Positions 282 through 58,090 of a DNA stretch of 64,000 nucleotides are shown piece after piece. The DNA is taken from the NCBI RefSeq assembly GCF_014696385.1, contig NZ_JACJQB010000012.1, positions 1 through 64,000 of the forward strand, given 5' to 3'. The stretch comes from Pseudanabaena mucicola FACHB-723. Lineage in GTDB: Bacteria; Cyanobacteriota; Cyanobacteriia; Pseudanabaenales; Pseudanabaenaceae. A program made the translations under genes and the position numbers. Every line of letters starts with the position of its first letter. Within the stretch, counting starts at the first letter, position 1. Below the pieces are notes generated by a model, which worked only from the letters and a program-made list of their open reading frames with translations, searched no databases and was not told where the DNA came from.

Positions 282-326
282 CCAAGAAATGAGTTGTGGC
301 ACTTCGCGCCACAACTCATTTCTTGG
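282..326. repeat. perfect 19-bp hairpin
   Basis: Two perfect 19-bp arms enclose a 7-nt centre, ACTTCGC. It belongs to the set of gene-end hairpins with TTCGC/GCGAA centres found throughout the window. No T-run follows either arm. Confidence 0.8.
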
Positions 327-4307: not shown

Positions 4308-4359
4308 AGTTTTTCTATTTTGTTTCTTTGTCTTTCTTCACGTCAGCTTGACGAAGGCT

Positions 4360-4400
4360 GAAAAATAGTAAAAATCGCTTCGCGATTTTTACTATTTTTC
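4360..4400. repeat. perfect 19-bp hairpin, TTC loop
   Basis: Arms of 19 bp (GAAAAATAGTAAAAATCGC and its complement) around a TTC triloop, between queE and queC. The AT-rich outer arm and GCGC-like inner core resemble other gene-end hairpins here. It lies next to a second, imperfect hairpin. Confidence 0.85.
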
Positions 4401-4440
4401 AAAGCTTTGAACCGCCCGCGTCGCGGGCGGTTTAAGCTTT
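4401..4440. repeat. imperfect hairpin with ACCGCCCGC core
   Basis: An inverted repeat with near-complementary arms around an ACCGCCCGC/GCGGGCGGT core, just after the queE stop. The same core recurs at 14750-14782 and 48652-48706, and in a decayed form at 51876-51906, so it is a shared sequence family and not only a shared shape. Confidence 0.75.
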
Positions 4441-10045: not shown

Positions 10046-10077
10046 AAATTATACCCAAATATTTGCGTTTCCCCAAC

Positions 10078-10111
10078 AAAAAAAGATGGAGATATGCCTC
10101 CATCTTTTTTT
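10078..10111. terminator. 14-bp hairpin flanked by A and T tracts
   Basis: Arms of 14 bp (AAAAAAAGATGGAG and complement) with a 6-nt loop. The arms start and end in A7/T7 tracts, so the hairpin works as an intrinsic terminator on either strand. It separates the Hlip gene from the downstream ABC ATPase promoter. Confidence 0.75.
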
Positions 10112-10141
10112 GTATAGCTATAGCCACACAAGTTAAAACAT

Positions 10142-10192
10142 AAAACCAAAAGAGAGTTGCGGCGCGAAGCGCCGCAACTCTCTTTTGGTTTT
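10142..10192. repeat. perfect 24-bp hairpin with GCGC-GAA-GCGC core
   Basis: Two perfect 24-bp arms around a GAA triloop, ending in the TAA stop of the Hlip gene. The inner core GGCGC-GAA-GCGCC is the same as at 1547-1565, while the outer arms are unique to this site. One of the strongest secondary structures in the window. Confidence 0.9.
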
Positions 10193-10508
10193 ATTCGACG
10201 TTCTGAGTCGCTTTAACAGCGTAATAGCCGAGCAGAGTTGCCACCGTAAAGCCTGTGAAAAATAGGACAAACAATACACTAATGCCGCCAGTGATGCCAA
10301 CTTGAGCGAGAATACCTTTGCCAGTCAAGACTTCATTTGCGAAGCCAGCGACTAGACCAATCATTGCCATCCGACCATTCCAAGTCTCAGCAAAATTACT
10401 AAACCCAAATACACCTGCCCCTGTAGGATTTACATTAAGACCGACATTTTTAACGGTTTTAGAAGCTTCGTTATCGTTGTTTTGTGGTTTGGTTGGGGTT
10501 GATACCAT
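10191..10508 (-). CDS. high-light-inducible protein (Hlip/CAB-like), two-helix
   Basis: Thylakoid chlorophyll-binding stress protein of 105 residues. The Hlip motif FAETWNGRMAMIGLVAG holds the chlorophyll-ligand Glu and Asn and the helix-packing Arg. It is preceded by an acidic/polar N-terminal region of about 40 residues. A second hydrophobic helix (ISVLFVLFFTGFTVATLLGYYAV) follows, so it is longer than single-helix HliA types and closer to Lil-like two-helix forms. The stop codon sits in the 24-bp hairpin. An HLR1-like RpaB site lies 45 nt upstream, fitting high-light induction. Confidence 0.92.
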   Translation of the reverse strand: MVSTPTKPQNNDNEASKTVKNVGLNVNPTGAGVFGFSNFAETWNGRMAMIGLVAGFANEVLTGKGILAQVGITGGISVLFVLFFTGFTVATLLGYYAVKATQNVE

Positions 10509-18415: not shown

Positions 18416-18420
18416 TCCCT

Positions 18421-18449
18421 ATTGTTGCAGCGCTTCGCGCTGCAACAAT
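18421..18449. repeat. 13-bp hairpin with GCGC-TTC-GCGC core
   Basis: ATTGTTGCAGCGC and its exact complement around a TTC loop, immediately after ruvA. It is the complement orientation of the GCGC-GAA-GCGC core seen elsewhere. Confidence 0.85.
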
Positions 18450-18518
18450 AATTTTGGGAAGGGAGTAGTGATCTTAAGTCTATATAAGCATTTATACGGG
18501 GCAGAGCAAGCTTGATTT

Positions 18519-18550
18519 AACATAGAATTTGCGATCGCAAATTCTATGTT
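18519..18550. promoter_or_regulatory. perfect 32-nt palindrome centred on HIP1
   Basis: AACATAGAATTTGCGA and its exact complement meet with no loop. The centre is the HIP1 octamer GCGATCGC. It ends 34 nt before the first gene of the oxidase operon. It could be an operator, a cruciform or a leader hairpin. Confidence 0.6.
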
Positions 18551-31436: not shown

Positions 31437-31449
31437 ATTCTTCTCGCTT

Positions 31450-31492
31450 AAAAAAGGTACAATCTTTGCGTAGCAAAGATTGTACCTTTTTT
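31450..31492 (+). terminator. psaE terminator, perfect 20-bp stem
   Basis: Two perfect 20-bp arms, beginning AAAAAAGG and ending CCTTTTTT, around a GTA loop. The T-run makes it a strong intrinsic terminator. It ends only 8 nt before the mutM start codon. Confidence 0.93.
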
Positions 31493-31500
31493 AGTAAGTA

Positions 31501-41922: not shown

Positions 41923-41923
41923 A

Positions 41924-41970
41924 TAGAAAGTATGAAGTATCACACAGCGTGTGATACTTCATACTTTCTA
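41924..41970. repeat. perfect 22-bp hairpin, AGC loop
   Basis: TAGAAAGTATGAAGTATCACAC and its exact complement around AGC, beginning 2 nt after the SRPBCC gene stop. A short T-rich run follows. It also lies 40 nt before ligA. Confidence 0.88.
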
Positions 41971-41991
41971 TTGAGTTTTTGAGTAGAGTAA

Positions 41992-44031
<2,040 letters not shown>

Positions 44032-44050: not shown

Positions 44051-44078
44051 GTAGTGGCAATTCATGAATTGCCACTAC
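44051..44078. repeat. perfect 28-nt palindrome
   Basis: GTAGTGGCAATTCA meets its exact complement with no loop, between the convergent ligA and ITPase genes. It probably serves as a two-way 3'-end structure. Confidence 0.8.
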
Positions 44079-48429: not shown

Positions 48430-48744
48430 ATATTTAAATTCCTATGAATTTCTATTTCATGATATTTTTGTCTGTACTATTTTTGAAGATATCACCGAAA
48501 TACTACAGAATCGATTCCAGTTACACTTTCGGCAACAACCCATCAAGGATGTTCCCAAATTCTAAATATCTGGGTGTAAACTTTCAACTTGTTCAAATCG
48601 ATCTGGACTATTTCCCAAATTAGCCACTACATTAGTATCTGATGATTAATTTAATTGAGCAGATTTGTACCGCCCGCGTAGCGGGCGGTACAAATCTGCT
48701 CAATTAGTCATTTAAAATTCGTAAGGTTTATTAGGATTGACAAG
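48430..48744. other. intergenic region upstream of speA
   Basis: 315 nt without a gene. The main content is the 55-nt perfect hairpin at 48652-48706, 38 nt before the speA start. The rest is AT-rich. I see no clear -10/-35 pair or tRNA. Confidence 0.6.
48652..48706. repeat. perfect 26-bp hairpin in the speA leader
   Basis: Two perfect 26-bp arms around a GTA loop, with the ACCGCCCGC/GCGGGCGGT core. It lies in the likely 5' untranslated region of speA and not at a 3' end, unlike most others. It could act as a transcription attenuator or an mRNA stabiliser. Confidence 0.88.
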
Positions 48745-50702: not shown

Positions 50703-50745
50703 AAAACTTTTGAAAGCAGCGCTTTGCGCTGCTTTCAAAAGTTTT
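50703..50745. repeat. perfect 20-bp hairpin with GCGC-TTT-GCGC core
   Basis: AAAACTTTTGAAAGCAGCGC and its exact complement around TTT, between the convergent speA and the gene at 50773. The A/T ends allow termination in both directions. Confidence 0.88.
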
Positions 50746-51280: not shown

Positions 51281-51323
51281 CTAAAGCATGTGACGCACGC
51301 GCAGCGTGCGTCACATGCTTTAG
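51281..51323. repeat. perfect 20-bp hairpin, GCA loop
   Basis: CTAAAGCATGTGACGCACGC and its exact complement around GCA, just downstream of the HPt gene. The centre CGC-GCA-GCG keeps the GC-rich triloop pattern. Confidence 0.87.
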
Positions 51324-53177: not shown

Positions 53178-53212
53178 AAGAAAAAAGCGTCGCATTGCGA
53201 CGCTTTTTTCTT
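53178..53212. terminator. bidirectional 16-bp terminator between ArsA-type and rpaB genes
   Basis: AAGAAAAAAGCGTCGC and its exact complement around ATT, with A6 and T6 tracts at the arm ends. It serves both converging genes. Confidence 0.9.
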
Positions 53213-58061: not shown

Positions 58062-58090
58062 AAAAAGGCTGTGCTAAGCACAGCCTTTTT
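58062..58090 (+). terminator. 13-bp terminator after the RRM gene
   Basis: AAAAAGGCTGTGC and its exact complement around TAA, ending in TTTTT. A good intrinsic terminator. Confidence 0.9.

Follow-up and report, generated by a model that had tools for sequence, protein, structure and literature searches.

Loop inversion and arm matching in the gene-end hairpins of Pseudanabaena, probably by template switching

Hairpins with long arms and very short loops form a real population that is characteristic of the genus Pseudanabaena, and between sister genomes their loops are found exactly inverted far too often for point mutation to account for it. Observed directly are this frequent and exact inversion, paired changes in the stems, strand symmetry, and a position at gene ends; the explanation that we consider probable is that template switching during replication flips the loops and re-copies the arms, with the palindromes retained mainly at gene ends. 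The window, by which we mean the whole 64-kb stretch of DNA analyzed, comprises positions 1 to 64,000 of contig NZ_JACJQB010000012.1 of Pseudanabaena mucicola FACHB-723.

Counting arms no shorter than 10 bp and loops of 3 to 8 nt, we found 19 perfect inverted repeats in the window, 12 of them with triloops, compared with 7 such repeats in total (0.7 on average, with a longest arm of 12 bp) in ten Markov-2 shuffles of the window. All nine hairpins named in a preliminary description of the sequence lie where it placed them. Its arm lengths (19, 19, 24, 20, 22, 19, 26, 20, and 20 bp) are close to the perfect arms that we measured (19, 20, 26, 21, 23, 19, 26, 20, and 20 bp), several of which are 1 to 2 bp longer, and the 3-nt loop that it reported for most hairpins is present in eight of the nine, the hairpin at 282-326 having a loop of 7 nt. 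Hairpins of the window, none of them assigned to a strand, include the following.

282..326: perfect hairpin, arm 19 bp, loop 7 nt, within a 93-aa ORF that is possibly no gene
4359..4401: perfect hairpin, arm 20 bp, triloop TTC, intergenic in a codirectional gap
4410..4432: hairpin, arm 10 bp, triloop, the second one in the gap of 4359..4401
10076..10113: perfect hairpin, arm 16 bp, loop 6 nt
10140..10194: perfect hairpin, arm 26 bp, triloop GAA, belonging to the ...GAGAGTTGCGGCGC family
18420..18450: perfect hairpin, arm 14 bp, triloop TTC
31449..31493: perfect hairpin, arm 21 bp, triloop GTA
41923..41971: perfect hairpin, arm 23 bp, triloop AGC, immediately 3' of a stop codon
46920..46960: perfect hairpin, arm 19 bp, triloop TCT, in a convergent gene gap
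48652..48706: perfect hairpin, arm 26 bp, triloop GTA, in a divergent gene gap
50703..50745: perfect hairpin, arm 20 bp, triloop TTT, in a convergent gap downstream of speA
51281..51323: perfect hairpin, arm 20 bp, triloop GCA, resembling the repeated CTAAAACCTGTGGCGCACGC arms
53178..53212: perfect hairpin, arm 16 bp, triloop ATT, in a convergent gene gap
58062..58090: perfect hairpin, arm 13 bp, triloop TAA
59911..59945: perfect hairpin, arm 14 bp, loop 7 nt

RNA energies of 13 window hairpins range from -18 to -47 kcal/mol. Scanning the window against Rfam gave no match at the gathering score, and a tRNA scan of the window found none. The window also contains two palindromes centered on GCGATCGC, the cyanobacterial HIP1 octamer, at 2770-2793 (inside a gene) and 18519-18550, as well as the fully palindromic GTAGTGGCAATTCATGAATTGCCACTAC at 44051-44078, near relatives of whose sequence lie by genes in other Pseudanabaena.

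The same population extends through the genome and the genus, of which 26 genomes were searched. A 464-kb sample of the window's own genome (the window plus 400 kb) contains 133 hairpins whose arms reach 10 bp or more, against 3 in one Markov-3 shuffle of equal length. When arms of at least 13 bp and loops of 3 to 5 nt are required, seven Pseudanabaena samples hold 198 to 345 hairpins per Mb, compared with 24 per Mb in other cyanobacterial loci and 19 in non-cyanobacterial loci, and one shuffle of each sample contained none of this class. Of the two outcomes that would have counted against the preliminary description neither appeared, as there is no single family and the density is far above that of the other sampled genomes. 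The palindromes are strand-symmetric, with arms of mostly 13 to 26 bp and a triloop closed by C-G: among own-genome triloops on arms of at least 12 bp, the closure is C-NNN-G in 68 of 71 and G-NNN-C in none, and across 2.0 Mb of the genus it is C-NNN-G in 461 of 477. Loops are A/T-rich, and AAA, GAA, GTA, TAA, and AAT (taken as unordered strand pairs) account for 369 of the 477 triloops in the 2.0 Mb; C-GNA-G triloops form very stable DNA hairpins.

Hairpins of this kind concentrate between genes. Across 2.0 Mb of the genus, counting arms of at least 12 bp with few mismatches, their density per kb is 4.97 in convergent, 2.66 in codirectional, and 1.30 in divergent gaps, compared with 0.014 in coding sequence, and the nearest upstream stop codon to a hairpin in our sample of the window's genome lies at a median distance of 11 nt (n = 102). 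We paired orthologous gene ends whose gaps span 40 nt or more, and in 104 of these 336 pairs, which overlap and hence are not independent, both members have hairpins with unrelated arms, whereas shuffling of partners predicts 89.3 (p = 0.001). Downstream of speA, a perfect hairpin (arm of at least 8 bp) occurs within 170 nt in 21 of 26 genomes of the genus, with arms that are mostly different, and together these recurrences indicate that gene ends favor some hairpin irrespective of its sequence.

Comparisons between strains rest on orthologous gene ends and on the pair G006 and G007, since genomes of 91% identity gave few aligned blocks. (Around ligA, G015:C1:3103001-3503000 and G025:C2:163001-563000, from 91%-identical genomes, share 49 kb of aligned blocks in strongly scrambled gene order.) The key evidence comes from this one pair, of which G006 is a draft and seemingly a metagenome-assembled genome; the two align over 269,468 columns with 0.641% mismatch, with five genes 99.5% shared. 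Either or both contain 122 hairpins with arms of at least 9 bp, and in 115 of these the loop is not self-complementary. Sixty-nine of the 115 are identical between the genomes, 25 carry the exact reverse complement of the loop (21 on identical arms and 4 with a single alteration in the stem), and the remainder show other differences; outside the 25, at least three of eight rearranged hairpins also show a reversed loop, and a plain one-base loop change with nothing else was seen in a single hairpin. Inversion affects 24 of 76 hairpins with arms of at least 13 bp and loops of 3 to 5 nt, as opposed to none of 27 with arms of 9 to 12 bp (p = 0.0003), while the 1 of 12 among those with arms of at least 13 bp and loops of 6 to 8 nt is not a significant difference alone (p = 0.17). 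Corrected for double flips, 24 in 76 corresponds to 0.50 inversions per hairpin, or about 78 per substitution per site. Hairpin loops contain 30 of the 72 runs of three adjacent mismatches in this alignment and make up 249 of its 269,159 triplets, an enrichment of 771-fold.

Inversion extends to hairpins whose arms are unique and to more distant relatives. Where the 13-nt core of the arm is unique in 360 kb of G007, 17 loops are inverted, 20 the same, and 5 otherwise changed; where the core is repeated, the numbers are 8, 21, and 1. Flips are at least as frequent on unique arms as on repeated ones, and exchange with another copy is therefore unnecessary. Across 21 genome pairs of greater divergence, orthologous hairpins that share the same arms have 19 inverted, 14 identical, and 8 otherwise changed loops, and 19 of 41 is near the 50% expected at saturation. 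The stem after ligA, of 25 to 27 bp, has the loop TCA in G022 and G015 and TGA in G025, all three being near-complete assemblies of 1 to 9 contigs. These inversions were seen in sister genomes and not in the window's own genome: its speA protein is 91 to 95% identical to those of other Pseudanabaena, and at the DNA level its nearest relatives are about 82% (speA) and 78% (ligA) identical, which is too distant to reveal recent events in its own hairpins.

As a control, four gene-end hairpins of Escherichia coli K-12 (arms of 12 to 14 bp, loops of 4 to 6 nt) were searched with reversed loops in about 5,200 to 5,400 genomes each, a small set that is not matched in loop size to the Pseudanabaena triloops and whose hairpins may face stronger selection. 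One inversion was confirmed in 21,354 genome-sites, a count that an inverted loop with several further changes could escape (one further genome is one mismatch off the inverted form): the yccU-hspQ hairpin has its 6-nt loop exactly inverted in PapM-32-1 (L360), the sole such genome among about 5,230 matched at that site. Loop inversion thus takes place in E. coli, and either it is infrequent or selection removes the inverted forms.

Orthologous stems, where they differ, differ in pairs. We counted 42 compensated pair changes, which are clustered in few hairpins and come from genome pairs that share branches and are perhaps not all orthologous; transitions number 24 and transversions 18, the latter including 12 swaps like C-G to G-C. 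Passage through G-U pairs should yield nearly pure transitions, but this ratio is indistinguishable from that of background substitutions in the same alignments (32575:20114; p = 0.53), which supports correction of one arm from the other. At the 0.64% divergence of G006 and G007, there is one double change from A-T to G-C, and single stem changes occur as well. This small sample of compensated changes argues for correction, alongside possible selection on the RNA. The comparison of orthologous intergenic regions in sister strains that the preliminary description suggested yielded both paired arm changes and loop inversions, and the templated correction during replication that it proposed is supported by the 25 inversions in 115 loops and the background-like substitution ratio.

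Under the probable reading, template switching, replication would meet a long palindrome and the polymerase would switch template at the hairpin, copy across the loop from the opposite strand, and then switch back. The switch back would leave the loop turned round and part of one arm overwritten by the complement of the other, such that a single event could accomplish both loop flip and arm repair. A mutation in one arm would be lost or would spread to the other arm as well, leaving a perfectly paired stem whose sequence drifts. We advance more tentatively, and rate as rather doubtful, the stronger proposal that an unusually high rate of template switching in Pseudanabaena maintains hundreds of gene-end hairpins by mutation and not by selection, with loops flipping about 78 times for each base change and the hairpins acting as two-way transcript ends. 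SbcD, a subunit of the hairpin nuclease, and the large subunit of ExoVII are encoded in every Pseudanabaena genome surveyed for them (6 of 6 for SbcD, 5 of 5 for ExoVII), and loss of either was rejected as the cause. A second SbcD-like metallophosphoesterase is encoded beside RNase HII (G000:C1:324731-325897, equivalent to L099:4731-5897), and, among the matches listed, each of the 6 Pseudanabaena checked has a second SbcD-like copy above the cut-off.

The gene-end hairpins seem likely to act as terminators or at RNA ends, and in a phylum without Rho they may serve as bidirectional transcription ends or as protectors of RNA 3' ends. That they are simply ordinary intrinsic terminators, with RNA-level selection alone keeping the stems paired and changes passing through G-U intermediates, is nevertheless unlikely. 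A stable hairpin just past the stop codon, as expected of an intrinsic terminator, is what we find, and the greatest density in convergent gaps, the recurrence of unrelated-arm hairpins at orthologous (although non-independent) gene ends, and 5' arms rich in purine and A all fit such a role. So do the unpaired positions: on the sense strand of codirectional gaps, G-U outnumbers A-C by 42 to 24 (p = 0.036), compared with 19:20 in convergent and 17:17 in divergent gaps, an excess that favors some RNA-level selection. The other explanation offered in the preliminary description, selection for an RNA role, is weakly favored by the position at gene ends, the recurrence of 104 against 89.3, and this G-U excess. 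A canonical terminator, however, would be asymmetric, and the 197 near-stop and 170 other codirectional hairpins lack any asymmetry toward a sense-strand 3' U-tract: codirectional gaps have on average 2.77 T in the 8 nt 3' of the hairpin and 2.75 A in the 8 nt 5' of it, which rules out canonical U-tract terminators and bears out the earlier remark that several hairpins lack a T-run, in that T on the sense strand is in no excess over mirrored A. T-rich arm ends are present but are matched by mirrored A-rich starts, which is what arm copying would produce. Loops in codirectional gaps, oriented by the upstream gene, are likewise balanced (126 purine-rich and 130 pyrimidine-rich; TTT 36 and AAA 36; GAA 25 and TTC 25), and among those no more than 40 nt from a stop codon TAA outnumbers TTA by 13 to 4 (p = 0.049, uncorrected for many tests). 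Terminators alone also leave unexplained the exact loop inversions, the transversions and pair swaps as frequent as in the background, and the hairpins of divergent gaps, which contain no gene end yet are nearly 100 times as dense as those in coding sequence.

Copying of the palindromes themselves must also be weighed, as must error in the assemblies and recombination. Had a mobile or copied superfamily of palindromes, like REP elements or MITEs, seeded the genus, perfect pairing would reflect recent copying instead of correction, an account that we find improbable as a general one. In its favor, 34 of the 118 hairpins sampled from the window's genome have relatives that share at least 85% identity over the 12 to 16 nt beside the loop, against 0 to 2 of 118 with shuffled arms (in the window, 3 of 16 have one); the CTAAAACCTGTGGCGCACGC arms recur six times in 400 kb outside the window; and the core GGCGCNNNGCGCC has 94 to 794 sites per genome in 25 of 25 Pseudanabaena genomes, 0 to 4 in nine genomes from other genera of the family, and bursts of 112 to 241 in five scattered cyanobacteria (G042, G045, G122, G191, and G250) where controls mostly have 0 to 8. 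The burst in G250 is an isolated one, three congeneric genomes having 0 to 1 sites. At one orthologous site, after gene g58, the hairpin of G010 is wholly absent from G018, and this absence, together with family membership, implies that copying or insertion contributes; insertion of copied palindromes may have seeded some sites, and others may have been born by copying of one existing arm, for which only one or two half-sites (G022/G015 and G010/G018) were seen. Most arms, however, have no relative in the sample, and a single dispersed family behind all of them is ruled out, relatives being confined to the 34 of 118. The claims of the preliminary description that the arms are unrelated and that one element was not simply copied hold for most hairpins, whose arms share little but GC beside the loop, and fail for these 34, with the hairpin-less site a further exception to the last. 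Neither of the REP end tags GTAG and CGTC was seen by eye within 8 nt on either side of 13 window hairpins, and copying does not flip a loop in place between unique arms. The three cleanest cases of apparently empty sites, between G025 and G015, are not orthologous: they are paralogs of a larger MITE-like repeat, inside which one of the hairpin families sits. This repeat starts at approximately AACGTCAGTTCGGGTTAAGC (e.g., in G025:C2 near 262.4, 325.2, and 443.1 kb) and contains one or two internal triloop hairpins; in both G025 and G015, some copies have the first hairpin and others lack it. A word that does not span an arm together with its loop leaves a bidirected k-mer graph ambiguous, and assemblers or sequencing might thus misorient a loop between identical arms, particularly in G006, a draft; we regard such an artifact as very improbable, since ordinary reads span hairpins this short, inverted loops also distinguish the near-complete assemblies G022, G015, and G025, and flips are found in 11 of 26 hairpins with arms of 13 to 16 bp and 5 of 26 with arms of at least 21 bp (p = 0.13), the reverse of what word ambiguity would lead one to expect. 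Inversion by a site-specific recombinase would account for its being frequent, reversible, and exact, but it is scarcely credible given that the arms vary by site and hold no shared recombinase site, with little in common except GC beside the loop, and a 3-nt spacer is, to our knowledge, unlike the substrates of known invertases.

Plastids are descendants of cyanobacteria, and the Pseudanabaena loops represent a bacterial counterpart of the "flip-flop" inversions of plastids. In 20 Lauraceae plastomes, such inversions are reported at eleven sites, in some cases on short stems (one listed stem has 9 bp), and they resemble ours as repeated, homoplastic loop flips at hairpins in largely noncoding DNA, but eleven sites contrast with hundreds of hairpins per Mb in Pseudanabaena (PMC6824564). 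Template switching has been reported to invert spacers in yeast genes, with ten cases in coding genes and only with arms above 9 bp (PMC8604942), and to underlie 69 loop-inversion clusters in the histories of rRNA genes (PMC8794818). This template-switch, or quasipalindrome, mutagenesis shares with the Pseudanabaena hairpins the exact inversion of short spacers, homogenization of arms, reversibility, and a requirement for longer arms; as these reports describe it, such inversion is rare in yeast and rRNA, whereas 24 of 76 Pseudanabaena hairpins (arms of at least 13 bp, loops of 3 to 5 nt) are flipped at 0.64% divergence (PMC8604942, PMC8794818). A study that surveyed perfect inverted repeats across 118,019 genomes reports that near terminators the spacers show excess polymorphism and the arms are conserved, with 4-nt spacers the commonest in bacteria, and its main text contains neither "Cyanobacteri" nor "Pseudanabaena" (PMC13155455). 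Bacterial intrinsic terminators, like our hairpins, lie just past stop codons, but the Pseudanabaena hairpins have no U-tract asymmetry and a 3-nt, C-G-closed loop in place of the 4-nt spacer of the survey. Loop inversion could produce the excess spacer polymorphism that was surveyed. REP and BIME palindromes of the GTAG and CGTC superfamilies, present in some cyanobacteria, are also short, extragenic, and many-copied, the Pseudanabaena hairpins differing in their longer perfect stems and mostly unique arms (PMC3733652). Cyanobacteria lack Rho, and in Synechococcus elongatus only 22% of transcription units are reported to end like intrinsic terminators; hairpins could mark transcript ends there as in Pseudanabaena, a genus that the account in PMC13289151 does not cover (PMC13289151). 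A search of the open literature found no earlier report that loops of gene-end hairpins are so widely inverted in bacteria; the process is known in kind, and what seems new, as far as this search reaches, is its scale in the hairpins of Pseudanabaena.

It has long been asked how extended RNA stems keep their pairing while the two arms evolve, and the answer offered by template switching has rested mostly on rare, scattered events. Pseudanabaena provides hundreds of natural hairpins in which a flipped loop is a clean mark, countable by comparing near-identical strains. A cluster of substitutions in a hairpin loop may reflect one inversion, a caution relevant to the excess polymorphism reported for terminator loops.

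Palindromes also occur inside a gene. In 12 of 25 loci of the genus, the ligA ORF contains an internal palindrome of 12 to 16 bp at a spot of variable length (e.g., L105:2174-2208), and the ligA of the window (42010-44031) has none. The loop of this palindrome, which when oriented reads GAA, TTC, AAA, or TTT, alters the codons, giving, for example, Ala-Lys versus Ala-Ser.
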